In this document: positions 740-54,779 of the stretch, in pieces
How the letters are laid out: every line of letters begins with the position of its first letter
How positions within the stretch are numbered: the stretch's first letter is position 1
From: Sulfuritalea sp.
GTDB taxonomy: Bacteria > Pseudomonadota > Gammaproteobacteria > Burkholderiales > Rhodocyclaceae
NCBI GenBank assembly: GCA_030651305.1
Contig: JAUSCI010000027.1
Location: forward strand, 1 to 58,544
Length of the DNA stretch: 58,544 nt
Direction: 5' to 3'
Made by a program: the position numbers and the translations under genes
Notes under the pieces: model-generated
What the model was told of the DNA's origin: nothing
Database searches by the model: none
Seen by the model: only the letters and a program-made list of their open reading frames with translations

Positions 740-1738
740 TTACAGCTCGTTGAGGAAAGCCAGTAGTTGGTCATCCGGTCGATAGCGTACGAAGGCGACA
801 TCGAGGGGCGTGACTTTGGCCAGCACTTGCTCTTTGATGGCGAGGTTTGCGTCGAGATAGATCTGCGTAGTTTCGACGGACTCGTGGCCGAGCCACAATG
901 CGATCACGGCACGCTCGGCGCCTGCCTGCATCAACTCCATGGCGGTGGTATGTCGGAGCACATGCGGCGTGACGCGCCTGGTCGCCAGAGATGGGCAGCG
1001 CTGTACGGCCACCGCGACGTGCTTGGCGAGCAGGTATTGCATCCCATCGGCGCTCAAGCGTGTGCCACGGGCATTCGGGAACACCGTCGCGTCGGCGTTG
1101 CCGGGAATCTCCCGCAGCCAAGCGTTCAGAACAGCCGCGGTTTGCCGAGTCAGGGGGATAGCCCGTTCCTTGCGGCCCTTTCCCAGCACGCGAACGTGCG
1201 CTCCTGTGCCGTGGAACACCGAGTCCCGGCACAAGCCGGTGAGTTCAGACAGACGCAGCCCGGTTTGAATCGCCACCAGGAGCAGAGCATGATCGCGACG
1301 CCCGGACCAACTGTGCTGATCGGGCGCCGCCAACAACGCGTCAATCTCCGGGCGAGTCAGGAAGCCGACTTGGGCGCGTGTAAATCTCTGGCTGGGAATG
1401 GCGAGTACGCGCTGGATCTGTTCCGCATGAGCAGGCGCTTCGAAAGCCGCGTAGCGGAAGAACGAACGAATCGCGGTGAGCCGCAGGTTGCGACTGCGGG
1501 CCGTGATGCCGCGGTTGTTCTCGAGATCGTCGAGGAATGCGGCGATCAATGGCGCGTCGACCTGCTCGAAAGCCAACTGCGTCGGCGCCTTGTCGAGTTG
1601 CCCTTGGGCAAAGCGCAGCAGCAGGCGGAAGGTGTCCCGATACGAAGCGATCGTATGCGGACTGGCCCGGCGCTGCTGCATCAGCCGCTCGGTAAAGAAG
1701 CGCTGCAACAGCGCCGGGAAACTGACCGCCGGACTCAT
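740..1738 (-). CDS. RIT tyrosine recombinase, third gene
   Basis: This 332-aa protein has an N-terminal SAM-like core-binding domain (~10-110) and a C-terminal phage-integrase catalytic domain. The catalytic residues are visible: Arg in GLRLSELTGL, HVLRHTT, WLGHES and the nucleophilic Tyr in TQIYLDAN. It is the last gene of the trio. Its ATG overlaps the stop of the middle recombinase (ATGA), implying coupled translation. It probably acts together with the other two to move the element. The family is clear; the division of labour within RIT trios is not. Confidence 0.9.
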   Translation of the reverse strand: MSPAVSFPALLQRFFTERLMQQRRASPHTIASYRDTFRLLLRFAQGQLDKAPTQLAFEQVDAPLIAAFLDDLENNRGITARSRNLRLTAIRSFFRYAAFEAPAHAEQIQRVLAIPSQRFTRAQVGFLTRPEIDALLAAPDQHSWSGRRDHALLLVAIQTGLRLSELTGLCRDSVFHGTGAHVRVLGKGRKERAIPLTRQTAAVLNAWLREIPGNADATVFPNARGTRLSADGMQYLLAKHVAVAVQRCPSLATRRVTPHVLRHTTAMELMQAGAERAVIALWLGHESVETTQIYLDANLAIKEQVLAKVTPLDVAFVRYRPDDQLLAFLNEL

Positions 1739-2667
1739 GGCAGATCTCCCCAGCGTTGTTCAAGGCGGGCAACCGCCAAGCCCATCAGCTCCGGACAGGC
1801 ACTCAGATACCAGTAGGTATCGGCGACATGGACGTGCCCCAGGTAGGTCGATAGCATAGGCATGCGCCGCTCGACATCCTCGCCCGAGCGGTACCATCTC
1901 AGCAGCGTCTGAACGGCAAATCGATGACGAAAGTCGTGCAGGCGAGGGCCATGGCTGGCGGTCGCCCCGCGCAGACCGAGGCGGCGCGACAGCAGGTAAA
2001 AGGTTCGGTGAATATCACCGATGTCCAGATGATTACCTCGGCTGGTGATGAAGAACGTCAATGCCGTGCGGCCGGCAAGGAAGCTCTCCCGACGTGCTCG
2101 GTACTGTTCAAGCACGTCCCCCGTCGACGGATGAATTGTGACCAGACGCGACTTGCCGAATTTGGTGCCGCGAACCGTCAGCACACCTGCGTGCAGATCG
2201 ACATCCTCGGCCTTGAGACGGATCGCCTCGCCAATCCTCAGGCCAGTAACGCTGAGCAAGCCGAGCAGGCAGTGATACGTCCACGGGCGCAATCCACCTG
2301 CCGTCGGCAGTTCGAGCGCGCATTGAAGCAGGCCGGCGATGTCCTCCTCCGAGTACAGATAGGGTTGTGCCCGGCTGGGGCGGAATGGCAACAGGCCCGT
2401 CGGCGGAATCTCGGTGTGCGGGTCGCTCGCCACGTGGTAGCGGGCAAAGCCACGGACATATCCCAGCCGCTGTGCGCAGGTTGCCGGCTGCATCGACGGA
2501 CTCTGCTGCGCCCATTCGAGCGCCAACGCCACCGTGATATGCGCAGCGCTGCGGGCCTCCATGAACACGGCGAACTTTGCCAGGCACAGGCCGGCATCGC
2601 GCAGCTTGAACCCCAGATTGCGACGCAGGGCCAGATAGTCCTGGATCGATTGTTCGATCGTGGTCAT
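1735..2667 (-). CDS. RIT tyrosine recombinase, middle gene
   Basis: This 310-aa tyrosine recombinase has GLRIGEAIRLK (catalytic Arg), LHDFRHRFA (His-x-x-Arg), a longer spacer, then TYLGHVHVADTYWYL with the Tyr nucleophile. The spaced ERRMPMLSTYLGH segment is typical of middle RIT recombinases. The ATG at 2667 is chosen over an upstream GTG because AGGGAG lies at good spacing and the ATG forms an ATGA overlap with the preceding stop. It overlaps the third gene in the same way. Confidence 0.9.
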   Translation of the reverse strand: MTTIEQSIQDYLALRRNLGFKLRDAGLCLAKFAVFMEARSAAHITVALALEWAQQSPSMQPATCAQRLGYVRGFARYHVASDPHTEIPPTGLLPFRPSRAQPYLYSEEDIAGLLQCALELPTAGGLRPWTYHCLLGLLSVTGLRIGEAIRLKAEDVDLHAGVLTVRGTKFGKSRLVTIHPSTGDVLEQYRARRESFLAGRTALTFFITSRGNHLDIGDIHRTFYLLSRRLGLRGATASHGPRLHDFRHRFAVQTLLRWYRSGEDVERRMPMLSTYLGHVHVADTYWYLSACPELMGLAVARLEQRWGDLP

Positions 2668-3897
2668 GGCGCACTCCCTGGCCACGGCAGAGCCAACGGG
2701 CGCAACAAGTCAAGGTCGACCTTGGCGTAAATCATCGTCGTCTGCGGGTTGCGGTGACGCAGCAGTTCGCCGATCTCGTCCAGCGACGCACCTTGGCGCA
2801 GCATCTGGGTGGCCACGGTGTGACGCAGCAGGTGGGCACCTTTGTGGGCAGGGTCGAGTCCGGCGCGAGCAAGCGCGCGCCGGACGAGCGTGGAAATAGC
2901 CGCCGAGGTTGCGAAACCGCGATGCGGTGCGCGGATGCGGACAAAGACCCGTCGCGAGGCGCAGGCAGGACGCGAGTTGCACAGATAGTCGGCCAGTGCC
3001 TCGCCGACGTCTTGTGGAATCGGCAGGTGATCTGCGCGCGTCCCGGCGCTCCGAATGCAGAGCTCTCCCGCCGCCCAATCGAGATCGTCGAGCGCCAGCG
3101 CGACGACTTCCCCGGCCCGCAGCCCCAACCGGGCGAGCAATAGCAGAATCGCCCAATTGCGGCGACCGACCGCCGATTCCCGTTCGCAACTAGCCAAGAA
3201 GCACTGGAGTTCGTCCGACGACAACGCCCGTGGCAGCGAGGCCATCGACCAATTCGCCACCGTCGGCACGCTTATCCGCAAGTCGTTCTTGATGAGCCCA
3301 CGGTAACGCGCGTATTGCAACAAGGAACGCAACGCCGTGGTCATCAGCTTCGCGCGTTTGCCATGATGAAGTCGAGCCGCCTCCCGCTGAACGAAACCCA
3401 CCACGTCCTCCGCCTGTAGTAGATCAAGCCGGACTTCGCCATCCCGACAGTACTCAGCGAGAAAGCGTCGGGCATATCCCAGATAATTGAATACCGTAGC
3501 CGGAGCGAGCCGACGTTCCTGTTCCAGATAACGCCGGAATTCCCCTTCCAGCCGCTCGGCAGACGTCGGCTCGACCGCTGGATCCACGGCGGCAACGCCC
3601 TGCTCGTTGAGCAGAGTCAACAGCCGTCGCAAGATCGACGCATCACCGGTTCTGAAATGTCCGCTTCGGGATCGATACCGCTGATAGCACGCCAGCCGCT
3701 CTGCGGTAACGCGGCACCCTGATTCGGCACCGACTCAACCATCGACCGAAATCGGCGACCAATTGCAACGCATAGCGAACTGAAGCTCTGGCGTACCCCT
3801 GTTCGAGCATCTGCTGAGCAAAGCCATCAACATACGCGCCCAGCAACCCGTCGCGCATGCGCTTGAGCGTGCACGAATCTCTGTACAACGGTTCCAT
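2664..3897 (-). pseudogene. RIT tyrosine recombinase, first gene, frameshifted
   Basis: Two frames together make one recombinase of about 410 aa. An 84-codon N-terminal piece (from ATG 3897) ends out of frame, and a downstream frame (RRLLTLLNEQG to the end at 2664) carries the rest, with LLRHTVATQML, ELLRHRNPQTT and the IYAKVD tyrosine. Near 3705 the second frame already reads VTAERLACYQRYR, so a single indel of one or two bases close to that point explains the break. It may be a real mutation, a programmed shift or a sequencing error. The start is supported by AAGGAG 7 nt upstream, inside a strong hairpin. Confidence 0.8.
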
Positions 3898-42281: not shown

Positions 42282-43241
42282 TTAATCTTGCCTGGCGCGT
42301 CCGGAAACCCGCTTCACCAGGACAAGCCGCTGCGAGGGCTTGAATCCGACATCGTGGAAAAACCCCAGCAGTTGGAAATCCTTGCTCGCGACAACCGTCT
42401 CGACCCGTTCGACACGCAGTCCGTCGAGATTCGCAAACAATTGCAATAACAACGCGTGGCCGACACCCCGGCGCGAATAAACCGGGTCTACGCCGATGGT
42501 ATCCAGCACGGCAACAGGTTCGGTGCGACCATAATCCCCAAAATTGGTCCGCGCCATGACAAAACCGACAGCTATGCCATCAATGCGCGCGACCAGTGAA
42601 ACGCGCACTGCGGAATCCTTCACCGCCTCGTCTACCAGTTCATAGAAGACGGCCTCGCGCCGCTGGCCAGTAACTTCCTTGTCTATGCGAACAACGTCGT
42701 ACAGGTCGTCGGGCTGCAACGTGCTCAAGTCCACCTTGTCACGATTATTGCCTTCATGCACCGCACGCCTTTGGTCTGTCACCCGAGTGTCGACCACGAG
42801 TTCGCTGCCCAGTTCGAAGCCGGCGTGGTCGAGGAACTGCATGATCGCGTGATCGCGCCAGGATGCCGTAGTGCGGATTTCGGCTATCTTCAGGCGATGG
42901 GCTTCGTCTTCGAGCCTGGACAGCAGCGCGGAACCAATTTGCTGCCCGCGCACGTCTGCAGCAACAGCAAATGCTTCGAGTCTGAGTGCCGGTTCGTTGC
43001 GTCCGAACTGCCCTTGCATCTGGCGCGCCATCATGAATCCGACCAGTTTCCCGTTCTGTTCCGCGCCCAACTGGACGTATAGCGCAGGCCGTGACTTCGC
43101 CGTCTTCAAACGCCGTTCGAAATAGAAAGCGCGGGGGTGACCGACGGCCGCGGCGTCCATGCCCATGACCGCTTCGAAGTCCTCCGCAACAAGACGACGA
43201 ATCATCATGCCATTGTTTTGCTGCTGATCAATAGTGTCCAC
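42282..43241 (-). CDS. Double GNAT-domain acetyltransferase
   Basis: 319 aa with two GNAT folds: the first with VRGQQIGSALLSRLE, the second with YSRRGVGHALLLQLFANL (acetyl-CoA loop RxxGxG/A). GTG 43241 is chosen for GAGGA at 8 nt. It lies 85 bp downstream of bamI on the same strand, so it may be cotranscribed. GNAT enzymes can acetylate acyl-CoA ligases (known for R. palustris benzoate metabolism); that use here is speculative. Confidence 0.8.
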   Translation of the reverse strand: MDTIDQQQNNGMMIRRLVAEDFEAVMGMDAAAVGHPRAFYFERRLKTAKSRPALYVQLGAEQNGKLVGFMMARQMQGQFGRNEPALRLEAFAVAADVRGQQIGSALLSRLEDEAHRLKIAEIRTTASWRDHAIMQFLDHAGFELGSELVVDTRVTDQRRAVHEGNNRDKVDLSTLQPDDLYDVVRIDKEVTGQRREAVFYELVDEAVKDSAVRVSLVARIDGIAVGFVMARTNFGDYGRTEPVAVLDTIGVDPVYSRRGVGHALLLQLFANLDGLRVERVETVVASKDFQLLGFFHDVGFKPSQRLVLVKRVSGRARQD

Positions 43242-43326
43242 AGTGAGTATCCTCAAGTGTCAGGCTGCAACCCGGTGCTCGATCTGACGCAATTCTTCAT
43301 GACGAACGAAAGGCGCTTCCCCGTCC

Positions 43327-43995
43327 CTACGTCGTAACCGGTGCCGGCATGATGGGAATCACCCGTGACTTGGGCTGCAGCGGCTTCTCAGCCTTGATCT
43401 TCTTGCGCTGGCCCGGAAACGCCAGTGCTTCGCTCAGCAGGTAGGCGGCCTGGGCGTAGGACGTCGGACAGATCGTAAAGCATTCCTGGCAGTCCCAGCA
43501 TTCCTTCCTGGCAACTTCCGGAATGAAGCTGATTTCACGCCGGGCGCCGTTGTCGATGAAGCCGACGGCATTCTTCTGCTTGACCTCGTTGCAGTAACGC
43601 ACGCACAGGCCGCAGACGATGCAGAACGATGCGTCGCGCTCGAAACGGTTGCGATCGGCGCCGTATTCCTCGGCCAGCTTGATCAGTTCCGGCGCGTCCG
43701 GCGCGTGGGCCATCAATTCCTCGACCAGCACCTTGCGAATCTTGTCCACTTTCTCCGAACGGGTGCGCACGACGATGTCCTTGGCCACCGGATAGACGCA
43801 GGACACGACATAACTGGTCCAGCCGCGTGATTCGACTTCGACCATGCACAGACGGCAGCCGCCGAAGGCCTCCAGCTTTTCGTGGTGGCACAGGGTCGGG
43901 ATGTGGATGCCTTCCTGTTGCGCTGCCTGCAGGACCGTCATGCCGGCCTTGGCCTTGACCTCCTTGCCATCGATGGTGAGGACGATGTCGGTCAT
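43327..43995 (-). CDS. bamI: Iron-sulfur subunit, BamI-type (NuoG-like)
   Basis: 222 aa. An N-terminal [2Fe-2S] ferredoxin fold (IPTLCHHEKLEAFGGCRLCM, VVSCVYP), a His-Cys segment as in NuoG, then two [4Fe-4S] motifs (CIVCGLCVRYC and CWDCQECFTICP). It would carry electrons between the BamGH NADH module and BamDEF. Overlaps bamH by 4 bp. Last Bam gene of the operon. Confidence 0.88.
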   Translation of the reverse strand: MTDIVLTIDGKEVKAKAGMTVLQAAQQEGIHIPTLCHHEKLEAFGGCRLCMVEVESRGWTSYVVSCVYPVAKDIVVRTRSEKVDKIRKVLVEELMAHAPDAPELIKLAEEYGADRNRFERDASFCIVCGLCVRYCNEVKQKNAVGFIDNGARREISFIPEVARKECWDCQECFTICPTSYAQAAYLLSEALAFPGQRKKIKAEKPLQPKSRVIPIMPAPVTT

Positions 43996-45644
43996 TTGGC
44001 TTCACTCCCGCCCGCGATGCGCGATTCATACTCGGGCTTGAAATAACGGAACATGCTCTTCAGCGGGTCGCCGGAGGTCTTGCCCAGCGCACACAGGCTG
44101 GCCGTGCCAGTGACCTCGATCAGATCTTCCAGGAGTTCCAGGTCACCCTTCTTGCCTTCGCCCTCGGTGAGCCGAGTGAGGATCTGCAGCATCTGCTGCA
44201 TGCCCTCGCGGCAGGGCACGCACTTGCCGCAGGACTCATTGACCAGGAAGTCCATCAGGTAGCGCGCCACCTCGATCATGTCGGTGTCCTCGTCCATCAG
44301 CAGCAGGCCACCGGCGCCGATCGGCGCGCCCAGCTTGGACATCCCGTCGAAATCCAGCGGAGCGTCGATCAGGTCGGCCGGGATGGAGCCGCCCATGGCG
44401 CCGCCGAAGTGGATGGCCTTGAGCGTCTTGCCGTCGCGCACGCCGCCGCCGATGTCGAACACCAGGGTGCGCAGCGGCGTACCCATCGGCACTTCGACGA
44501 TGCCGCTGTTCACCACATTGCCCGACAGGGAGATCAGCTTGGTGCCCTTGCTCTTCTCGGAGCCGATGCTGGTGAACCACTCGGCGCCCTTGTTGATGAT
44601 CTGCGGCACGTTGGCCCAGGTCTCGACGTTGTTGAGATTGCTCGGTTTGTCCCAGATGCCATTGACCGAGGTGCGAATGTACTTCGGCCGTGGTTCGGGT
44701 GCATTGCCTTCGATCGAGCGCATCAGGGCCGACGATTCGCCGGAGACGAAGATGCCGACGTCGAAATGCAGTTCGCATTCAAAGTCGAAACCGGAACCGA
44801 GGATGTCGGTGCCCAGCAGGCCGTATTCCTTCGCTTGCGCCAGCGCGTTCCTGACGTGCTTTTCCAGTAGTGGCATGTCGTGGCGGGTGTACATGAAGCC
44901 CTTATGCGCACCGATGGCATAGGCGCCGATGATCAGGCCTTCGAGTACCTTGTGCGGGTTGCCGGTGAGCATGGCGCGATCCATGAAGGCGGCGGACTCG
45001 CCTTCGTGGCCGTTGACGATGACGTACTTGGTCTTCTCCGGCGCATTCCGGGTGGTCTCCCATTTCGAGCCAGCCGGAAAGCCGCCGCCGCCACGGCCGC
45101 GCAGGTTGGCCTTCTTCACTTCGTCGAGAACCTGGTCGGGCGTCATGGTGGTCAGGGCCTTGACCAGTCCGGCATAGCCGCCGACCGCGAAGTAGTCGTC
45201 GATGTTCATCGGGTCGATCTTCGGGTTGTCGCCGATCAGAAGGCGCGTCTGGTGCTTGTAGAAAGGCACCTCGTTCATGTGTACGGCCTTGGCGCCCGTG
45301 TTCGGATCCTTGTACACCAGTCGTTCGACCACTTCGCCCTTGAGCGTGGCGGCGAGGATGTCGGGCACGTCCGCGGGCTGAACCTCGAAATAGCAGATGT
45401 CGCCGGGCGTGACCACGACGTTCGGTCCCTTTTCGCAGTAGCCGTGGCAACCGGTGGTCCTGACCTCGATCTTGTCGCCGAGCTTGCCGGCTGCTGCGAC
45501 GAAGGCGGCGGCCACCGCCGCCGAGTCCATGCCGTCGCAGGCCGCGCCGGCGCAGACCGCGATACAGGGTTTGGCGGGATCCCTGCTGGCCAGGATTTCC
45601 GCCCGGTATTTTTCCAGTTCGGCCGCTGTGTGTAGCTTTGGCAT
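43992..45644 (-). CDS. bamH: NADH-oxidising flavoprotein, BamH-type (NuoF-like)
   Basis: 550 aa. N-terminal thioredoxin-like [2Fe-2S] domain (CIAVCAGAACDGM, CHGYCEKGP), then NuoF: NADH/FMN site GRGGGGFPAGSKW and NGHEGESAAFMDR, and the [4Fe-4S] motif SCGKCVPCREGMQQ. It should oxidise NADH or another donor. ATG 45644 begins MPKLHTAAELEKYR. Longer than NuoF because of the N-terminal domain, as in other BamH proteins. Confidence 0.9.
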   Translation of the reverse strand: MPKLHTAAELEKYRAEILASRDPAKPCIAVCAGAACDGMDSAAVAAAFVAAAGKLGDKIEVRTTGCHGYCEKGPNVVVTPGDICYFEVQPADVPDILAATLKGEVVERLVYKDPNTGAKAVHMNEVPFYKHQTRLLIGDNPKIDPMNIDDYFAVGGYAGLVKALTTMTPDQVLDEVKKANLRGRGGGGFPAGSKWETTRNAPEKTKYVIVNGHEGESAAFMDRAMLTGNPHKVLEGLIIGAYAIGAHKGFMYTRHDMPLLEKHVRNALAQAKEYGLLGTDILGSGFDFECELHFDVGIFVSGESSALMRSIEGNAPEPRPKYIRTSVNGIWDKPSNLNNVETWANVPQIINKGAEWFTSIGSEKSKGTKLISLSGNVVNSGIVEVPMGTPLRTLVFDIGGGVRDGKTLKAIHFGGAMGGSIPADLIDAPLDFDGMSKLGAPIGAGGLLLMDEDTDMIEVARYLMDFLVNESCGKCVPCREGMQQMLQILTRLTEGEGKKGDLELLEDLIEVTGTASLCALGKTSGDPLKSMFRYFKPEYESRIAGGSEAK

Positions 45645-45652
45645 GTTTGTTC

Positions 45653-46105
45653 CTACTCGTATTGTTTCAGGACGTCTTCGATCTTTTCCGGCGTCATGCG
45701 GCCGTAATGCTTGCCGTTGACGATCAGCTCCGGCCCGATGCTGCAACTGCCCAGGCAGGCGCCAGTCTGGTAGGTGAATCTTGAGTCGGTGTCGGTCTCG
45801 CCGTCCTTGAGGCCGGTGAGTTCCTCTACCTTCGCTCGCAGCTTGGCCGCCCCGCGCAGGTGGCAGGTCATGCCGGTGCACACATGCACCTCGTGGCGGC
45901 CCTTCGGCGTCAGGCTGAAGGCCTTGTAGAAACTGGCGATCTGCATCACCTGGGCGAAGGGCACTTGCAGGGCATCGGCCACTTTCTGCATCACTTCCCT
46001 GGGCAGCCAGTGGTTCTGGTGCTGGATTTCGACCAGGGCGTGGATCAGTGAACCCGGCTGGCCCCGGTATTTCTCGATGATGCCGTCGATAGTATGTTCA
46101 GACAT
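45653..46105 (-). CDS. bamG: NuoE-like [2Fe-2S] subunit, BamG-type
   Basis: 150 aa, thioredoxin-like ferredoxin: HVCTGMTCHLRGAAKL and TGACLGSCSIGPELIVNG supply the four cysteines. Partner of BamH, 8 bp downstream. GGTGG at moderate spacing before ATG 46105. Confidence 0.88.
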   Translation of the reverse strand: MSEHTIDGIIEKYRGQPGSLIHALVEIQHQNHWLPREVMQKVADALQVPFAQVMQIASFYKAFSLTPKGRHEVHVCTGMTCHLRGAAKLRAKVEELTGLKDGETDTDSRFTYQTGACLGSCSIGPELIVNGKHYGRMTPEKIEDVLKQYE

Positions 46106-46145
46106 TATGTGCGTTCCACCCATGTTTGCATTTTGGTGATTGGCT

Positions 46146-46916
46146 TCAGGCGGCAAGTGCGAGCTGGGCCTGATTGCCTTCAAGACGGACGATGCCCTGT
46201 TTCGACAGGAGTTCCAGGTGGGCGGCGACTCGCGAGGGCTCGAGGCCCAGTTTTTGCGAGATGCCGCCAGCCGACCCCTCTCCCGCGCGCAGCGCACCCA
46301 TGATGCGTGCCATGGCCAGCTTGTCCAGGATCAGTTCCTTGAACAACCGGTCGTAGTCGGGCCGGGCGAAGAACTCCCGGTAGCCATCTTCGGTCCGCTT
46401 GGGCACGCGGAAGCGCTCCCGTTCGACCAGCTTGTAATAGGGCACCAGTTGCGTCGCCGCCTCCAGGCCGGACTGCAGGTCGGCGACGTCACGACCTTCC
46501 GAGGACCCAAAGGGGCCGAGGCTTTTGATCTTCGCTCCGAACTCGTTCATGACCTCGGCAAAGCGTATGCCTTCGCCCGCCGACACCCATTCCAGGCGCA
46601 GCCGGTCGGGATTGACGCCGATGTCAGCCAGGATGCGCTTGGCGACGAAGCTGTTGCCCAGGGCGTCGTAGTTGCCTTCGGGGTTGTAGTGGCAGTCGCC
46701 GAGGTGGCAGCCGCCGATGAACACGCCGTCGGCCTTCTTGGCGAAGGCGCGGAAGATGAACTCCAGGTCGACGCGGCCCGAGCACATCAGGCGGATTACG
46801 CGCAGATAGGGTGGATACTGGAAGCGCGAGACGCCGCACAGATCGGCGCCGCCGTAGCAGCACCAGTTGCACAGAAAGCCGACGATGATCGGTTTGAAAT
46901 CGGAGGGGGCAGCCAT
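46146..46916 (-). CDS. bamF: MvhD-like [2Fe-2S] protein, BamF-type
   Basis: 256 aa. The N-terminal ~140 residues match MvhD/FrhD-type electron carriers: GFLCNWCCYGGADLCG and VFIGGCHLGDCHYNPEGNY. Cys appears where selenocysteine is known in some homologues; there is no in-frame TGA. The C-terminal ~100 residues add a winged-helix-like unit (AMARIMGALRAGEGSAGG, SQKLGLEPSRVAAHLELL) of unknown use. It should link BamE to BamGHI or BamD. AAGGA before the ATG. Confidence 0.85.
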   Translation of the reverse strand: MAAPSDFKPIIVGFLCNWCCYGGADLCGVSRFQYPPYLRVIRLMCSGRVDLEFIFRAFAKKADGVFIGGCHLGDCHYNPEGNYDALGNSFVAKRILADIGVNPDRLRLEWVSAGEGIRFAEVMNEFGAKIKSLGPFGSSEGRDVADLQSGLEAATQLVPYYKLVERERFRVPKRTEDGYREFFARPDYDRLFKELILDKLAMARIMGALRAGEGSAGGISQKLGLEPSRVAAHLELLSKQGIVRLEGNQAQLALAA

Positions 46917-46950
46917 ACTCGTTCCTTATTGGTTGCGTTGTCGCTGCGCG

Positions 46951-49900
46951 TTAAACCAGTTCCAGCGCGGCGTCGATCTGGTTGAACACTTCGTCGTCCG
47001 TGTAGTGGGAAAGGCTGATGGCCGCGGTCGGGCACTTGGAAACGCACAGCCCGTCGCCCTTGCACAACACCGCATTGACCACCGCCTTCTTGCCGCGCGG
47101 CGTATCCATGAAGTTGATCGCGCCGTAGGTGCACACCGAGATGCAGGCGCCGCAGGAGACGCAGTCCATGCCCTTCACTGCGCAGACCGCACCCGAGGCA
47201 ACCACGGTGTCGCGCGACAGCAGGGTCAGCGCCCGGCCTGCCGCGCCATAGGCCTGGGTGATGGTCTCCGACATGTGCTTGGGATATTGCGCCGTGCCGC
47301 AGAGAAACACGCCTTCCGCGGCGAAATCCACCGGCCGTAGCTTGGCGTGGGCTTCCTGGAAAAAACCGTCGGGACCCAGCGGCACCTTGAACATGCGCGC
47401 CAGATCGGCGGCGCCCGGTGCGGGGATCACCGCCGCGGCGAGGATGATGGCATCGACGTCGAGTTCCAGCTTCTTGCCCAGGATGGGATCGGCGGCCGTC
47501 ACCCGGATGAAGCTGCGACCGCGCTCGTCCATGGCTGCGACCACCGGCGCATCTTCCGGCTCGTAGCGGATGAACTTGACGTCCTTCCTCGACGCTTCGA
47601 GGTAGTAGTCCTCCCTGAAGCCGTAGGTGCGAATGTCGCGGAAGAGCACATAGATCTCCACGTCCGGCTTGAGCTCCTTCATCTTCAGGGCGTTCTTCAT
47701 CGCGCCGCTGCAGCAGACGCGGGCGCAATAGTTGCGGTCCTCGTTGCGGCAGCCGACGCACTGGATCATCACCACGCTTTCCGCCGCCATCAGCTTTTCA
47801 TCATTCTTGGCGAGCTTGCCTTCCATCTCCAGCAGGGTCATCACCTTGTCATTCTTGCCGTACAGGTACTCGGTCGGCTTGAACTCGGAAGCGCCGGTGG
47901 CGATGATGGCCGCGCCGTGCTTGATGGTGCGCACGCGGCCCTTGGACTTCACCGTGGTGGTGAAATTGCCGACGTAGCCATCGACATGGATGATGGCGGC
48001 ATCGGTGATGGCGTGGATCTTCGGGTGGCGGTACACCTTCTTCTTCAGGTCCTTGACGAAGCTCTGTACGTCCATCCCCTCCAGCGTGTAATGCATGCGG
48101 TTGGCGATGCCGCCCAGATCAGAGGCCTTCTCGATCAGGTAGGTTTCGTAGCCCTGCTCGGCCAGGGTAAAGGCGCTGGTCATGCCGGCGACGCCGCCGC
48201 CGACCACCAGCGCGGTCTTGTCCACCGGCAGCGAGAACTCATCCAGCGGCTCCAGCTTGCCTGCCCGCGCCACCGACATGCGCACGATGTCCTTGGCTTT
48301 CTCCGTCGCGGCCTCCTGCTCCTTGGAGTGCACCCAGGTGCAGTGCTCGCGAATGTTGGCCATGTCGAAGAAGTACTGATTGACACCTGCCTCGCGCAAG
48401 GTGTCGCGAAACAGCGGCTCGTGCGTACGCGGCGTGCAAGCCGCGACCACGACGCGGTTCAGTCCCTTGTCGCGGATGGTGTCGGAGATGGCCTTGGCGG
48501 TGTTGGTGGCGCAGGCGAAGAGGCTCTCCTCGACGTGCACCACGTTGGGCAAGCCCTTGGCGTACTCGGCGATACCCGGCACGTCCACCACGCGGCCGAT
48601 ATTGGCGCCGCAGCGGCAGACGAAGACGCCGATCTTGGCTTCCTCCTGGGTGACGTCCTTCTCTGCCGGATAGACCCGTTCCTCGTTCAACTGCCCGCGC
48701 CGCGACATGAGCAGGTTGGACGCCAGGGCGCCAGCGCCGCTGGCGCCCATCACCGCCTCGGGAATGTCCATCGGACCCTGGAAGGCGCCGCTGGTGAAGA
48801 TGCCCGGCCGGCTGGTCTGCATCGGATTGAAGGACTCGACCTGGCAGAAGCCGTGACGGTTGAGCTCGATGCCGAAGACCTTGGAGAAGCGCTGCGCGTC
48901 CTTCGGCGGCGCCAGGCCTACCGAGAGCACCACCAGTTCGAAGAATTCCTCGACCACGCCGTCGGGCGTGGTGTAGCGGATGGAAACGTCTCCGGTTTCC
49001 GGATCTTCGCTGCCGATCGAGGTGTAGCTGCGGACGAAATGTACGTCGGGAAGTTTCTGTGCTCGCTGGTAGAAACGCTCGAAGTCCTTGCCGTAGGAGC
49101 GGATGTCGTTGTGGAAGATCTTGGCATGCATGTCGGGCAGGTGGTCCTTGGCCAGGATCACCTGCTTTTGCGTGTAGGAACAGCACACCGCCGAGCAATA
49201 ACTGTTGCCGCCTGCCGGATTGACCTGGCGCGAACCGACGCAGTGGATCCAGGCGATTTTTTTCGGATGCTTCTTGTCCGAGGGGCGCAGGATCTGGCCC
49301 TCGTGCGGCCCGGTGGAGCACAGCAGGCGCTCGAAGTCCATGCTGGTGACCACGTTGGCGAACTGGCCATAGCCGTAATCGTTGCGCGGCAAGGGATCGA
49401 AGGTTTCATAGCCGGGCGAGAGGATGACGGCGCCGACCTTGATCTTGACCTTCTCGGCTTTCTGGCCGAAGTCGATGGCGTCGTTTTCGCAGACGGTCTG
49501 GCAGATCGAGCAGGTCTTGTCCTTGAGGAACAGACAGCTCTCGTCGATGTAAGTGACCAGCGGCACGGCCTGCGAAAAATAGATGTGCACCGCCTTGTTG
49601 AGTGACAGGTCCTGGTTGAACGGATCCGGAATCTTGACCGGACAGTATTCGACGCAAACGGTGCAACCGGTGCACTTGTCCTCGATGACGTAGCGCGGCT
49701 TTTTCAGCAGGGTGACGGTGAAGTCGCCCGGCTCGCCTTCGATGCTGTCAACATCGGTGTAGGTCATCAACTGGATGTTCGGCTGGCGGTCGGTTTCGAT
49801 GAACTTCGGCGACTCGATGCACATCGAGCAGTCGTTGGTGGGAAAGGTCTTGTCCAGCTGCGACATCTTGCCGCCGACGGTCGGCGACTTCTCCACCAGG

Positions 49901-50052
49901 TAAACCTTGTAACCGCAGGTCGACAGGTCGAGCGCGGCCTGGATGCCGCTGATGCCGCCGCCGACGACCATCACGTCGCCCATGTTGTTGTCGTCCGCCG
50001 AACGAAGGACGTTCCGCGTGTTCCATTCCTGCTGCAAGAGTCCAAATTCCAC
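46951..50052 (-). CDS. bamE: HdrA-like FAD/Fe-S subunit, BamE-type
   Basis: 1033 aa, essentially two HdrA units. First FAD site VVGGGISGIQAALDL (~28), with NDCSMCIESPKF and ferredoxin CTGCTVCVEYCPV; second FAD site LVVGGGVAGMTSAFTLAEQG (~600); C-terminal ferredoxin CVSCGACISVCTYGA and CKGDGLCVSKCPTA. HdrA FAD carries out electron bifurcation; in Bam complexes it is thought to drive the low-potential step. GTG 50052 has AGGA at 8 nt. Confidence 0.92.
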   Translation of the reverse strand: MEFGLLQQEWNTRNVLRSADDNNMGDVMVVGGGISGIQAALDLSTCGYKVYLVEKSPTVGGKMSQLDKTFPTNDCSMCIESPKFIETDRQPNIQLMTYTDVDSIEGEPGDFTVTLLKKPRYVIEDKCTGCTVCVEYCPVKIPDPFNQDLSLNKAVHIYFSQAVPLVTYIDESCLFLKDKTCSICQTVCENDAIDFGQKAEKVKIKVGAVILSPGYETFDPLPRNDYGYGQFANVVTSMDFERLLCSTGPHEGQILRPSDKKHPKKIAWIHCVGSRQVNPAGGNSYCSAVCCSYTQKQVILAKDHLPDMHAKIFHNDIRSYGKDFERFYQRAQKLPDVHFVRSYTSIGSEDPETGDVSIRYTTPDGVVEEFFELVVLSVGLAPPKDAQRFSKVFGIELNRHGFCQVESFNPMQTSRPGIFTSGAFQGPMDIPEAVMGASGAGALASNLLMSRRGQLNEERVYPAEKDVTQEEAKIGVFVCRCGANIGRVVDVPGIAEYAKGLPNVVHVEESLFACATNTAKAISDTIRDKGLNRVVVAACTPRTHEPLFRDTLREAGVNQYFFDMANIREHCTWVHSKEQEAATEKAKDIVRMSVARAGKLEPLDEFSLPVDKTALVVGGGVAGMTSAFTLAEQGYETYLIEKASDLGGIANRMHYTLEGMDVQSFVKDLKKKVYRHPKIHAITDAAIIHVDGYVGNFTTTVKSKGRVRTIKHGAAIIATGASEFKPTEYLYGKNDKVMTLLEMEGKLAKNDEKLMAAESVVMIQCVGCRNEDRNYCARVCCSGAMKNALKMKELKPDVEIYVLFRDIRTYGFREDYYLEASRKDVKFIRYEPEDAPVVAAMDERGRSFIRVTAADPILGKKLELDVDAIILAAAVIPAPGAADLARMFKVPLGPDGFFQEAHAKLRPVDFAAEGVFLCGTAQYPKHMSETITQAYGAAGRALTLLSRDTVVASGAVCAVKGMDCVSCGACISVCTYGAINFMDTPRGKKAVVNAVLCKGDGLCVSKCPTAAISLSHYTDDEVFNQIDAALELV

Positions 50053-50066
50053 TTTGTTGTCCTCGC

Positions 50067-51221
50067 CTAGATTGCTTCGCGAATGATTTCGGTGATGTCC
50101 CTGATCTCGATGGACGCACCTCCGTCCGGACGGCTCAAGCGGCTGTCCTCGAAATTGGTGGTGCAATAGGGACAGGCTGTCACCATGATCTGGGCGCCTG
50201 TGCTCACCGCCTGCTCCAGGCGCAGGTCGGAGAAGCGCTCGCCCTTGGGCGTTTCCATCCAGATGCGGCCGCCGCCGCCGCCGCAGCAGAAGCTGTTCTT
50301 GCGTGACTCGGCCATCTCGTTCAATTTCAGGCCGGGCACGCTCTTCAGCGCTTCGCGCGGCTCGTCGTAGATGCCGTTGTGGCGGCCGAGATAGCAGGGG
50401 TCGTGGTAGGTCACTGTCCTGGCGAATTCCTTGGTCAGCTTCAGCCGGCCCTCATTGATCAACTGGTGCAGGAACTCGGTGATGTGGATCACCTCGAAAT
50501 TCACCTTGAACTCGCGGTATTCGTTCTTGAAGCTGTGATAACAGTGCGGCGACGACACGAGGATTTTGGTGACGCCGTTGTCGACGAAGTTGCGGATGTT
50601 CTGCCGCGCCAGGGTCTTGAACAGCTTCTCGTCGCCTGTCTTGCGGATGCTCTCGCCGCAACAGCTCTCGTCGGTGCCGAGGATGCCGAAATCGACACCC
50701 GCCGCTTGCAGGATCTCCACCGTCGCCTTGGCGATCTTCTTGCCGCGCGGGTCGTAGGAGAGATAACAGCCAGGCGAATAGAGCACCTCCATGCCGTCTT
50801 CGAAGCGCTTGACGCCCAAGTCCTTGGCCCAGTCGGCCCGCTTCGAGCGCGCTTCGCCGAAAGGATTGCCCTCCGCCCGCAGGCCGGCCGAGACGCCCGG
50901 AATCGGCGACGCGCCACCGGCAAAGACATCGTATTCGGTGGCGATGCGGCGCAGCGCGATGCCCGATTCGATCTGCTTGACGTCACGCGGACAGACTTGC
51001 GGACACTTGCCGCAGGTGGTGCAGCGCCAGATGTCCTCGCTGTCGATCTCGGTCAGGCCGAAGGTGGCCTCGCGCACGATCTTGCGCATGCTGAACTTGC
51101 CGACCCGGTTCCAGGGGCAGACGGTGTCGCACATGCCGCACTGGTAACAGGCTTTGAAAGCATCGCCGCCGCTGGCCTTGATGGCGTCGATGATCTCTTT
51201 TTGGGGGGTTACGGTCTCCAT
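50067..51221 (-). CDS. bamD: HdrD-like Fe-S subunit, BamD-type
   Basis: 384 aa. Two ferredoxin motifs at the start (CYQCGMCDTVCP, CTTCGKCPQVCP) and two CCG domains (ESCCGESIRKTG, CCGGGGGRIW) that bind noncubane clusters in HdrB/D. It would pass electrons from BamE to BamBC. Genes lie 14-27 bp from neighbours. Confidence 0.92.
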   Translation of the reverse strand: METVTPQKEIIDAIKASGGDAFKACYQCGMCDTVCPWNRVGKFSMRKIVREATFGLTEIDSEDIWRCTTCGKCPQVCPRDVKQIESGIALRRIATEYDVFAGGASPIPGVSAGLRAEGNPFGEARSKRADWAKDLGVKRFEDGMEVLYSPGCYLSYDPRGKKIAKATVEILQAAGVDFGILGTDESCCGESIRKTGDEKLFKTLARQNIRNFVDNGVTKILVSSPHCYHSFKNEYREFKVNFEVIHITEFLHQLINEGRLKLTKEFARTVTYHDPCYLGRHNGIYDEPREALKSVPGLKLNEMAESRKNSFCCGGGGGRIWMETPKGERFSDLRLEQAVSTGAQIMVTACPYCTTNFEDSRLSRPDGGASIEIRDITEIIREAI

Positions 51222-51248
51222 GGGTTCTTGTCCTTATTGTTGGAGGTC

Positions 51249-51791
51249 TTACGGCTTCGCCATCCGGGCGATGGTATCCAGCACCTGCTGCAAGCCGAAC
51301 TTGTCGATCATCGCGCCGATGCCGATCTCGACATCGCCCAGCTTGGGCTGCTCGTCTTCCTCGACTTCCTCTTCACGTTCGACGTAGATCAGAGCTTCGG
51401 CGTGACACCACTCGACGCACTTGGGCTGTGCCAGTGCGGGGGTTTCCTCGCACATGTCGCACTTCAGCGGCAGGCCGGAATCGGGCTCGTGGAACAGGTC
51501 GCGCGAGGGGCAGGAAGCGCGGCAGAAGTCGCATTCGTTGTATTCCTTGCCGTCGATGATGTACTTGTCGCGGCCGGTGCATTCCGACTCGGTGTACTCG
51601 CCGGCATACACCGGCAGGTAGATGTCCCGCAGCGGCAGGCGCACGATGCGGATGCGCGAGCGCGCCGGGTTGTTGCTGCTGTAGCGCGGCGTCGCATGCC
51701 AGGAAGAGCAGATCACCTCGCAGGCCTTGCAGCCGTTGCACTTGTCGGCGTCAATGGTGATCGACTTGACGATTTTCTTGACCTTAGCCAT
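51249..51791 (-). CDS. bamC: Ferredoxin-like electron-transfer subunit, BamC-type
   Basis: 180 aa with about three [4Fe-4S] sites (CNGCKACEVIC, CDFCRASCPS, CDMCEETP). Electron input to BamB. Overlaps bamB by 8 bp, consistent with the tight BC heterodimer. Confidence 0.92.
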   Translation of the reverse strand: MAKVKKIVKSITIDADKCNGCKACEVICSSWHATPRYSSNNPARSRIRIVRLPLRDIYLPVYAGEYTESECTGRDKYIIDGKEYNECDFCRASCPSRDLFHEPDSGLPLKCDMCEETPALAQPKCVEWCHAEALIYVEREEEVEEDEQPKLGDVEIGIGAMIDKFGLQQVLDTIARMAKP

Positions 51792-53745
51792 TGTTGTAGA
51801 TTCCTTTCTGCTCGAATTCCTCGGCGACGAAACCCATTTCCAGCTCCTCCAGGGATTCCCTGGTGGGTATGCCCTGGTTGTTGAAGCCCTTCAGCTTGTA
51901 GTACTGGTCGAGCAACTGCTTCTCCAGGTCCGGGAAGCGCTTCCGCCAATGGTCCTCCGGCGGCTTGTCGTCGGCGCGGCGCATGCCGCGGCGCACATTG
52001 AGCGCGCGCATCAGGGTGCGGGTGCGCGTCGCCGACTTCCAGACGTCGTCCTTGCTCATCTTGATGCCGGTTGCCGCCGTGACGAACTCGGGATAGTTGT
52101 GGATGTGGTAAGGCGGCTTGAGCGGGAAGGACGACAGGCCGGCGCACATGCCCAGGGCGTCGTCGATGTAGTGCATCTTCTCCATCCAGTCCACGATCTC
52201 GCAGCTGGCCTCGACCGTTGGATAGTAGGGATTCGACATTTCGCCGCGCGGCTCCCAGTCGACGTAGTACTTCTTGAACTTCTCGTCGGGAACCTGAAAC
52301 CAGTCTTTGACAAACTCCTCGCGCAACTCGCGGGTGGCGAAGGGCTCCTGCGGGAACTGGCCCTCGATCTGGGTAATGTTGATCTTTTCCCCGGTCGAGT
52401 ACATCAGGTAATAGACCGGATTCAGCATGCCCAGCTTGAGCGGCAGTTGCTCATGCTTCTTGATGGTGTTGTGGTCGTACTTCTCCGCACCCTTGCCGAT
52501 ACGTCGCGCCGCCCAGTAGGTGCCGTCGGCGAGGTAGTCGCCGATGCCTTCTCGGCGGACGATCTTGTCCAGCAGGTAGAAGAAACGGCCCTCGGTGTCT
52601 TCCGGCATGCCGGGAAAGTCTTCCAGGGTGAGGATGCCGGCTTCCAGCAATTCGAGGCCGAAAGCCATGGCCTGCGGCGCCGAAAAGCCGTCGACGCCGT
52701 ACTCGGTGGCCTTCTGCGCGATCCTGAAACCGAAGTCAAGATCGGAGAAAGCCGCCATGGTGTAGGTCAGCTTCGAGTAGCACTTCATCATGTAGGTGGG
52801 CAGGCCCGGCACCGAAATGGTGGCGCCGCACTTCATCGGACAGTTGTGGCAGCTGATCAGTCGGGTGCGGACGTTCTCCTGGGTTTGCTTCCACTTCTGC
52901 TCGATTTCATGCGTCCAGAAGTCCTTGCGCCGGGTGCGCGAATTGCCCCAGGTGAAATTGGTGGTATGCCATTCCTCGTCGACGATGGCCATTTCCTGCG
53001 GCGAACCGAGCCCCTGCAGAATCGGCGGCACGCCCTTGATCGGGTTGTCGCCGCGGAACTTGATGTACTTGAGCACGCCGTCGCACAGTTCCATGTACTT
53101 GGCCGGGTCGGCTACGTTGATGTCTTTGGTGCCGCGCACGGCGATGGCCTTGAGACCCTTGTCACCCATCACAGCGCCGATGCCGCCGCGCGAGGCCGAG
53201 GAGCGGCCCTGTTCGATCGAGGCGTAGAAGACCCGGTTCTCGCCGGCCAGGCCAATGGCTGCCACCTGGATGTCCGGATCGTCGAGTTCCTTGCGGATCG
53301 CCTCCGAGGCCGCGGTGGCGCCCATGCCCTTCAGGTGCGAGGCGTCGCGGATCTCGACCTTGTCGTTGTGGATCCACAGATAGACCAGATCTTCCGACTT
53401 GCCGCTGATGATCACCTTGTCGTAGCCGGCGTATTTCAGCTCCGGGGCGAAGAAGCCGCCCATCATCGAATAGGCCATCAGCTTGGTTTGCGGCGAGATG
53501 GTCGACACGATGGTGCGGTTGCTGCCCGGCGCCGCGGTGCCGCAAAGCAGGCCGCTGCTGAAGATCAGCAGGTTGTCCGGCGAGAATGCGTCCGTCTCCG
53601 CAGGCACCCTGTCCCACATGATCTTGGCATTGGTGCCGAGGCCACCCATGTACAGTCGGGTGTCGTTCGGGTCGGTCTCCACCCGGTCAATACTGCCCCG
53701 CGAGAGATCCACTTCCAAATCAAACCCAATTTCTCCGTAACGCAT
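51784..53745 (-). CDS. bamB: Catalytic tungsten subunit, BamB-type aromatic acyl-CoA reductase
   Basis: 653 aa, aldehyde:ferredoxin oxidoreductase superfamily, the size of BamB. Cys299, Cys302 and Cys306 (SCHNCPMKC) bind [4Fe-4S]; Cys322 (MMKCYS) is at the position of the tungsten-ligating Cys322 I recall in G. metallireducens BamB, suggesting gapless alignment. Glu251 and His260 are also present, but residue 255 is Val where I recall His. BamB reduces benzoyl-CoA to a cyclic dienoyl-CoA without ATP. The substrate here could differ. Confidence 0.9.
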   Translation of the reverse strand: MRYGEIGFDLEVDLSRGSIDRVETDPNDTRLYMGGLGTNAKIMWDRVPAETDAFSPDNLLIFSSGLLCGTAAPGSNRTIVSTISPQTKLMAYSMMGGFFAPELKYAGYDKVIISGKSEDLVYLWIHNDKVEIRDASHLKGMGATAASEAIRKELDDPDIQVAAIGLAGENRVFYASIEQGRSSASRGGIGAVMGDKGLKAIAVRGTKDINVADPAKYMELCDGVLKYIKFRGDNPIKGVPPILQGLGSPQEMAIVDEEWHTTNFTWGNSRTRRKDFWTHEIEQKWKQTQENVRTRLISCHNCPMKCGATISVPGLPTYMMKCYSKLTYTMAAFSDLDFGFRIAQKATEYGVDGFSAPQAMAFGLELLEAGILTLEDFPGMPEDTEGRFFYLLDKIVRREGIGDYLADGTYWAARRIGKGAEKYDHNTIKKHEQLPLKLGMLNPVYYLMYSTGEKINITQIEGQFPQEPFATRELREEFVKDWFQVPDEKFKKYYVDWEPRGEMSNPYYPTVEASCEIVDWMEKMHYIDDALGMCAGLSSFPLKPPYHIHNYPEFVTAATGIKMSKDDVWKSATRTRTLMRALNVRRGMRRADDKPPEDHWRKRFPDLEKQLLDQYYKLKGFNNQGIPTRESLEELEMGFVAEEFEQKGIYNNG

Positions 53746-53760: not shown

Positions 53761-54561
53761 TCAGGCGGTGTTTTTGTCCATAAGGCTGGCGCGCATTACC
53801 GCCCCAGTCGTTCTTTGGTTTTCAGCGGCTACCATTTTTCGGCCGGAACTTCCAATAAGCGGCGGCAGGGTGATTGCGTCAAGGTGATGCTCCAGGCTGG
53901 ACGGCACGAAGCGCTCGGGACAACGCGCCACCAGGCCGCACACGGCGAGGGTATGGATCGTCCTGGCGACATCCTGGGGCGTCCCGTGCTGTTGGGGGTC
54001 GTACCAACCGTAACTCCAGTTGAGCATGCCGAAAACGCTGTATGTGACCCGCTCGACCTCGGCCGGGTCCAGCCTGTCTACGCCGCCGGCGCCGGGCGAT
54101 TTGCATCCGGAGACAAGAATCGCTGCCACGATGTCGCGGCAGATATTGAAGTAGGCTTCCTTGAGCAGACGCACGGTCTTGCGCCTGCCCGCAGGCAGCG
54201 CAGAGGCTTCATGCACCAGCACCCGCATCTCCGACCGGTTCTCGGCTGAATAACGGAGGTGATTCAGGATGAAGACATACAGTTGATCGACCTGATCATC
54301 GACACCCTCGAGCGCCGCGTTCGCCGAGCTGGCCATGGTTTCAAAGGCGTCGGTCTGCAGCGAAAAGAGCAGATCTTCCTTCGAGGAAAAATAGTCGTAG
54401 AAAGTGGCCAGGCCCCGTCCGGTTGCCCGGGCAAGACCGCGCATGGTCATGCCATGGAAACCATGCTCGGCAATGGCTGCGGCAGCAGCCTGGAGAATCT
54501 CGAGACGTTGTGCCTCGTGCCGGAATTGCCGCGAGGCCTCGGCGGCGACATGGCTCACCAT
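53761..54561 (-). CDS. TetR-family regulator heading the bam operon
   Basis: 266 aa. TetR-type helix-turn-helix (LEILQAAAAAIAEHGFHGMT, ATGRGLATFYDYFSSKEDLL). ATG 54561 is preferred to an upstream GTG because GGGGA lies at 6 nt. The gene ends 15 bp before bamB, so it should be cotranscribed, giving autoregulated control. Likely ligand: an aromatic acyl-CoA, by analogy only. Confidence 0.88.
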   Translation of the reverse strand: MVSHVAAEASRQFRHEAQRLEILQAAAAAIAEHGFHGMTMRGLARATGRGLATFYDYFSSKEDLLFSLQTDAFETMASSANAALEGVDDQVDQLYVFILNHLRYSAENRSEMRVLVHEASALPAGRRKTVRLLKEAYFNICRDIVAAILVSGCKSPGAGGVDRLDPAEVERVTYSVFGMLNWSYGWYDPQQHGTPQDVARTIHTLAVCGLVARCPERFVPSSLEHHLDAITLPPLIGSSGRKMVAAENQRTTGAVMRASLMDKNTA

Positions 54562-54779
54562 CGATTTCCCCTGAATGAGCGGCACTGCTCCGGAACAAAC
54601 TGAAATACATGCACGGCAGCCATCAGGTCACCTTGGTGCAAGGTGGTTCTGACGAGCGACGACGACGGGAGCAGCGCGTAAGCCATTTGACCTCCAGACC
54701 GGTTCGTACGGCCTTTTCGGGTTAACAGTCTGCAACGTATGCACGGCATTTCTTGTTGGACGACGGTAGCGATCGTACC

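Follow-up and report, generated by a model that had tools for sequence, protein, structure and literature searches.

We analysed a stretch of 58,544 nucleotides from Sulfuritalea sp., a betaproteobacterium of the Rhodocyclaceae (contig JAUSCI010000027.1 of assembly GCA_030651305.1), referred to below as the window. Between positions 53745 and 43327, and running downwards on the minus strand, it carries eight intact open reading frames (ORFs) ordered BamB-C-D-E-F-G-H-I, the gene set of a class II benzoyl-CoA reductase. By analogy with the known enzyme, the operon appears to encode a complete complex of this ATP-independent, tungsten-containing and flavin-bifurcating type, for which benzoyl-CoA would be the substrate and bifurcation the expected mode of electron supply. 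Enzymes of this class are characterised by tungsten, by a complex size of about 1 MDa and by the ATP-free reduction of benzoyl-CoA. An earlier interpretation made from the nucleotide sequence alone (the sequence-only reading) had placed BamB to BamI in this order at these coordinates, and both the domain matches and the gene order bear this out.

The predicted catalytic tungsten subunit is encoded by bamB (51784–53745), which starts with ATG and yields a product of 653 amino acids (aa) with matches to PF02730 and PF01314 above cut-off. It overlaps by eight bases with bamC (51249–51791, 180 aa), encoding a ferredoxin-like subunit with 4Fe-4S dicluster matches, and is followed by bamD (50067–51221, 384 aa), the HdrB/HdrC-like product of which carries cysteine-rich CCG domains (PF02754, 128.7 bits) and a 4Fe-4S (Fer4) domain. 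The HdrA-like flavin and iron-sulfur subunit BamE (46951–50052) would comprise 1033 aa if translated from GTG at 50052, or 1010 aa from ATG at 49983, and the 1010 aa form scores 940 bits against the HdrA2 model NF040770, under the model cut-off of 1100. The remaining genes encode an FlpD/MvhD-like BamF (46146–46916, 256 aa; PF02662, 163 bits), a NuoE-like 2Fe-2S subunit BamG (45653–46105, 150 aa; PF01257, 162 bits, scored on a form one codon longer), a NuoF-like FMN/NADH subunit BamH (43992–45644, 550 aa; PF01512, PF10589 and TIGR01959, 418 bits, scored on a longer form) and BamI (43327–43995, 222 aa; PF13510, 67.9 bits, and TIGR01973, 96.4 bits), which resembles the N-terminal, 2Fe-2S and 4Fe-4S cluster-binding part of NuoG. 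All are located on the minus strand, as is a TetR-family gene (53761–54585; PF00440 and PF17932) lying directly upstream of bamB, which is the probable regulator of the operon. BamF also shows an ArsR-type helix-turn-helix match at its C-terminus (PF01022, 25.3 bits, cut-off 22).

BamC to BamI were named by domain kind and gene order rather than by comparison to annotated Bam references. The names are supported by domain matches of the expected kinds and by the occurrence of the same gene order in distant genomes, such as that of a Desulfovibrio sp. (L043), where the order beside BamB is the same and all eight products are 46–74% identical to those of the window. The NCBIfam matches of BamC to BamI fall under the curated cut-offs, as expected for models that describe other enzymes.

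Residue 255 and the zinc site of BamB

The closest characterised system is BamBCDEFGHI of Geobacter metallireducens, which has eight subunits of the same kinds and for which BamB structures are available (PDB 4z3w and four more entries). The window BamB aligns with 4z3w over residues 1–652 without gaps (1126 bits), with 469/652 residues, or 72%, identical, such that the residue numbering transfers directly. Both proteins carry Glu251, Glu257, His260 and Cys322, and they differ at position 255, where the window protein has Val (codon GTC, 52983–52981) for the His of G. metallireducens. The sequence-only reading had given the same residues, with Glu251, His260 and Cys322 kept and Val at 255, and the alignment that it called for confirms that position 255 is truly equivalent in the two proteins.

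In the passages of a 2025 review on which we draw (PMC12096430), Glu251, His255, Glu257 and His260 are listed as "invariant" zinc ligands of the empty active site, and His255 is given an additional role in the proton conduit of BamB. Glu251 and His260 are placed beside the aromatic ring and Cys322 is assigned as the tungsten ligand; the zinc-expulsion model is, as far as the review tells, based on structures from G. metallireducens. The window BamB retains the tungsten ligand and both ring-adjacent residues and departs from the reported zinc-ligand set at Val255. Judged by the alignment, the altered residue is thus located at a zinc-ligand and conduit position and is not one of the two residues beside the ring, and the change is better seen as affecting the zinc site and proton conduit than the choice of substrate.

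The spread of this exchange was followed by scanning one genome per species, for 84,980 species, using six peptide patterns taken from the BamB of the window. Of the 173 relatives found, the best 80 were retained; with paralogues from the same loci and a family search, they yielded a canonical BamB set of 93 rows, of which eight from the family search were 652/652 identical to named loci and were removed to leave 85 distinct sequences. This sample leans towards close relatives of the window protein and more distant BamB are under-sampled. Glu251, Glu257, His260 and Cys322 are unvarying in all 85 sequences, and in all 93 rows, while position 255 is His in 44, a His occurs instead at position 254 in 12, and neither is present in 29. 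His255 is therefore absent from 41/85 sequences, for which reason we treated the zinc-ligand set as reported and not as defining; on these sequences, the label "invariant" does not hold for the four ligands.

Two phylogenetic trees, as had been proposed in the sequence-only reading, both placed the window BamB inside the canonical BamB clade. The first omitted rows L017, L083 and L099 and included four AOR outgroup rows, and the second, built with LG+C20, omitted the eight exact duplicates, the four AOR rows and five paralogue rows. On the second tree, 25 betaproteobacterial BamB form one side of a branch with a Shimodaira-Hasegawa approximate likelihood ratio test (SH-aLRT) support of 97, and the matching group on the first tree, of 32 rows including duplicates and one alphaproteobacterium, has a support of 98. 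L023 and L027, which are titled only Proteobacteria, were counted as betaproteobacterial on the basis of their identity to window-family rows. Residue 255 is Val in 20 of the 25, Ala in three and His in two, the latter both from Ramlibacter (L034 and L035). Outside the betaproteobacterial rows, the replacements in sequences lacking the His are Val, Ile, Phe and Gln. Changes between the presence of a His (at 254 or 255) and its absence number at least five on either tree, and the state without His is strongly clustered, with 5 changes where shuffling gave a mean of 25.1; near-copies contribute to the clustering.

A comparison of alignment columns between the 32 Val/Ala rows (duplicates and the alphaproteobacterium included) and 42 His255 rows revealed no clear compensating residue for the lost His255. 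Asp20 and Asp424, found in 32/32 of the Val/Ala rows, and His279, found in 28/32, are also present in both His255 Ramlibacter rows and consequently mark the clade and not the exchange at 255. His300 (26/32 rows) was rejected as a strict partner, since six Val/Ala rows and the two Ramlibacter rows have Tyr there; as read by eye, this position lies beside an iron-sulfur cluster motif.

Ring-opening genes and other reductases

Evidence relating to the substrate comes from the gene neighbourhoods of relatives. Among 23 named betaproteobacterial loci (L014–L036), seven (L016–L021 and L025, with titles including Rhodoferax and Comamonadaceae) carry Oah and Dch genes directly upstream of, and co-directional with, a Val255 bamB. 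Their BamB proteins are 91–95% identical to that of the window and the operon order is the same as far as the contigs reach; they differ in the genes directly upstream, where the window has the TetR gene. Had joins Oah and Dch in five of the seven loci, and in L017 and L019, where Had is not in view, the contig stops at Oah or inside it. For L018, the sole locus scanned, the matches to NCBIfam equivalogs were 567 bits for Had (cut-off 339), 614 for Oah (464) and 375 for Dch (292.5), with Dch ending about 65 bases ahead of bamB. A 2-oxoacid:acceptor oxidoreductase gene pair is located on the opposite strand beside these ring-opening genes, and is a possible source of reduced ferredoxin.

One Oah above cut-off was detected in each of the ten BamB-bearing genomes of the window's family, including its own. 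One of them, G415 (97% complete), carries both a Val255 BamB and Oah, and gave no match to PF06050, and hence no detected class I catalytic subunit. Together, the linkage to Oah, Dch and Had, the presence of Oah in 10/10 genomes and the G415 gene content argue for benzoyl-CoA as the substrate and against a substrate change. The proposal in the sequence-only reading that the complex acts on a different aromatic acyl-CoA is disfavoured by the same linkage and by G415, as well as by the position of the protein in the canonical clade.

Counterparts of bamA, bamQ and bamR are absent from the window and were found elsewhere in the same genome. On contig C29, boxA, boxB and boxC (above cut-off) are accompanied by one gene of the benzoate-regulator type and one of the benzoate-CoA ligase family, and by a Dch-like gene together with Oah (597 bits against a cut-off of 464) and Had (551 against 339). 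The remainder of the benzoyl-CoA pathway appears to be encoded elsewhere in the host genome, one step by a weaker, Dch-like candidate, and the earlier description of the pathway as incomplete is correct for the window but does not appear to extend to the genome.

The search for class I bcr genes, which had also been recommended earlier, led to a four-gene class I set on contig C59, but one in which all subunits score under the class I cut-offs (BCR, TIGR02259–02263; BZD, TIGR03190–03192). No class I BCR or BZD subunit above cut-off was found in the host genome, which is 97.6% complete, and its only BcrAD-type pair belongs to the C59 set. Comparison of three of the subunits with solved structures gave 374.2 bits for MbdO versus 105.5 for BzdO, 361.5 for MbdN versus 102.8 for BzdN, and 345.3 for MbdQ. 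On these three comparisons the set appears nearest to the 3-methylbenzoyl-CoA reductase Mbd (PDB 9g87 and 9gai), a class I, ATP-dependent enzyme which is unrelated to the BamB complex; the set itself lies outside the window. Given the scores under cut-off and the proximity to Mbd, the class II complex seems to be the only benzoyl-CoA reductase of the host, as far as the 97.6% complete assembly extends. The host differs from G. metallireducens in being a betaproteobacterium, in having a class I-type set as well as aerobic box genes, and in carrying its ring-opening genes on another contig.

A class I catalytic subunit above cut-off is also present in seven of the ten BamB-bearing family genomes, of the bzd type in G568, G469 and G541 and of the bcr type in G505, G404, G508 and G570; G000, G415 and G545 (80% complete) are those without. 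A search for PFL-like proteins of the benzylsuccinate synthase kind, which would have pointed to toluene, found none, and no 16S rRNA gene was found in the assembly.

Genomic setting and competing explanations

The operon occupies an accessory location. In the window, genes labelled by eye as uvrA-like and pntAB-like are 19.8 kb apart with the bam operon between them, and in 7/7 same-genus genomes compared their counterparts are separated by 1.2 to 8.7 kb with no intervening bam gene. BamB occurs in two of the six same-genus genomes listed and in 10/199 genomes of the family, counting the host itself; among 399 genomes of the order, the host was the sole bearer found. The second genome of the genus carries a TetR gene followed by bamB, bamC and bamD in the same order as the window. 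The pntAB-like gene pair beside the operon shows 82–89% DNA identity in ten same-genus relatives (at least 2.5 kb matched), which makes it improbable that the contig was binned wrongly. The nearest BamB, 97% identical, derives from a metagenome-assembled genome (MAG) titled Rhodocyclaceae bacterium and, together with the conserved gene pair, it agrees with the betaproteobacterial context noted in the sequence-only reading.

BamB proteins from three Rhodoferax/Comamonadaceae MAGs are 94%, and from a fourth 91%, identical to that of the window, while eight of nine other family members show 88–92%. The former are as near as, or nearer than, these eight, which fits an accessory operon that moved between families. 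Counterparts of the eight Bam proteins in betaproteobacterial loci are 61–97% identical where identified. A search for BamB on plasmids gave 82 records, all below 60% identity, of which the 15 listed reach no more than 30% and are annotated as aldehyde ferredoxin oxidoreductases.

We consider that the operon probably encodes a working class II benzoyl-CoA reductase with an altered zinc site, belonging to a betaproteobacterial clade in which residue 255 is Val or Ala. If the complex works as in G. metallireducens, electrons would enter via BamD–I and be split at the flavins, with the low-potential branch reaching the tungsten-bis-metallopterin in BamB. There, tungsten-bound water and His260 would deliver a hydrogen atom and a proton to benzoyl-CoA, and the product would pass to the candidate Dch and to the Had and Oah encoded elsewhere in the host genome. 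The chemical step is predicted to be unchanged in the Val255 enzyme, zinc would have no more than three protein ligands, plus water, to hold it, and the proton conduit would have to run without His255. More tentatively, the zinc plug may have been lost and proton entry gated otherwise than in G. metallireducens, which might be an adaptation to life as a facultative organism exposed to oxygen. Since zinc could still bind with three ligands and water, loss of the plug is a prediction and not a result. The idea of an oxygen-exposed life may be set beside the aerobic box genes of the host and the class I reductase kept by seven of the ten family genomes.

Several observations weigh against a working benzoyl-CoA reductase with an altered zinc site. 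The Dch candidate on C29 scores only 182.6 bits, compared with the TIGR03189 cut-off of 292.5, although the adjacent Had and Oah lie above their own cut-offs. Class I enzymes in seven of the ten genomes imply that class II need not be the enzyme in use. The operon of the window is adjoined by a TetR gene and not by ring-opening genes, as is also the case for seven of the 23 named loci, where a homologue 71–84% identical lies at the same place, and in the remaining loci of the 23 neither was seen beside bamB. G415 carries two BamB paralogue pieces in addition, and its Val255 protein is thus not its only BamB-like protein. Finally, the two Ramlibacter BamB, which are betaproteobacterial, carry His255.

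The Ramlibacter sequences, located inside the betaproteobacterial clade, would fit a position 255 that is only loosely constrained, either because the zinc of the G. metallireducens crystal is optional or because Glu251, Glu257 and His260 together with water suffice, in which case Val255 would be without functional consequence. The lack of His255 in 41 canonical rows, 12 of which have His254, the at least five changes of state on either tree and the lack of a clear compensating residue all point the same way, and such an explanation is compatible with benzoyl-CoA as the substrate. We nevertheless regard it as rather unlikely in view of the strong clustering of the state without His, even if near-copies help to produce it, and of a betaproteobacterial replacement that is only Val or Ala (23/25), whereas Val, Ile, Phe and Gln all occur elsewhere. 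Use of another aryl-CoA, such as benzoyl-CoA with a methyl or hydroxy substituent, would account for what might seem a redundant second enzyme in the seven genomes with a class I subunit, and residue 255 does form part of the active-site zinc site. This must be judged improbable, given the seven loci in which a Val255 bamB is linked to Oah, Dch and mostly Had, the absence of a detected class I enzyme from G415, and the retention of the ring-adjacent Glu251 and His260.

That the operon is a relic, non-functional or acquired recently, or results from a binning error could be suspected from the rarity of the operon in the family and order and from its absence at the same place in all seven same-genus relatives compared. 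Each of the eight ORFs is intact, however, and has betaproteobacterial counterparts; the neighbouring gene pair is conserved within the genus, and the second genome of the genus repeats the order TetR, bamB, bamC, bamD. We therefore consider a relic or misplaced contig very improbable, and retain a working benzoyl-CoA reductase with an altered zinc site as the preferred reading.

We do not present this as the earliest account of class II genes in Betaproteobacteria; such genes may already have been discussed for a member of this group. No description of a bamB–I operon with an altered residue 255 was found in open-licence PMC, where the spelling "His 255" used in the review escapes a search for "His255". 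In the parts of the literature consulted, class II enzymes are assigned to strict anaerobes (PMC12096430), bam-like but unclustered genes are described for Rhodoferax ferrireducens (PMC2755013), a class I enzyme is used by Georgfuchsia toluolica (PMC9765128), and bamB serves as a field marker beside bcrC and bamA (PMC5400083). The sequences presented here contradict the "invariant" zinc ligands of the review passage (PMC12096430), and the aerobic box genes of the host and the frequent co-occurrence of class I and class II enzymes in the family fit badly with its division by lifestyle, although we infer how these uncultured organisms live. Sister proteins that have or lack His255 inside one supported group (Ramlibacter and its neighbours) are among the natural variants that allow a direct test of zinc expulsion, and the Val255 clade provides a natural test of how the enzyme excludes water. 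For ecological surveys, equating bamB with strict anaerobes would be a misreading in the Betaproteobacteria that record titles assign to groundwater, lakes and permafrost soil.

BamB paralogues and neighbouring regions

A second BamB clade of 15 rows, 54–60% identical to the window BamB, occurs in the same Betaproteobacteria, including the same family, and in Chloroflexi (L072) and Desulfobacterales (L040). Its members share the AOR-family domains, Cys322 and His260 with the window protein and differ in a rebuilt 251–257 region, with Glu251 replaced by Trp (9), Val (3) or Thr (3). They are encoded at L034:6274-8747, L035:2872-4779, L031:6714-8663, L109-L117 and L178:8738-11208, some with only a BamC partner adjoining, and a different substrate or reaction is likely.

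Genome G505 (L176, L177 and L184), which is in two contigs, carries two bam sets, one with a canonical Val255 BamB and with Oah and Had nearby, and the other with a Thr251 BamB paralogue. BamG, BamH and BamI of both sets match those of the window at the same identities (82, 91 and 82%), and these equal values, for which each set was compared to the window's proteins, suggest a recent duplication of the BamG-H-I module in G505. The host genome also encodes an aldehyde oxidoreductase of 784 aa with a C-terminal ThiS-like domain (L097:8810-11164; 27.1 bits, cut-off 22.5).

Within the window, a gene for a double GNAT-domain acetyltransferase (42282–43256) adjoins the bamI end of the operon, and counterparts with 53–56% identity lie by the operon, in the other relative orientation, in the more distant Betaproteobacteria L033–L035. 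Three tandem tyrosine recombinase genes are located on the minus strand at 740–3632, beside a shorter integrase-like ORF (256–723) that scores just under the Pfam cut-off, and we take the trio to resemble a recombinase-in-trio element. The region 7556–31934, about 24 kb of mostly unassigned ORFs between ssb-like and MFS-transporter-like genes (read by eye) and the uvrA-like gene, appears to be a further insertion in this contig, since the counterparts of these flanking genes are neighbours in G460.

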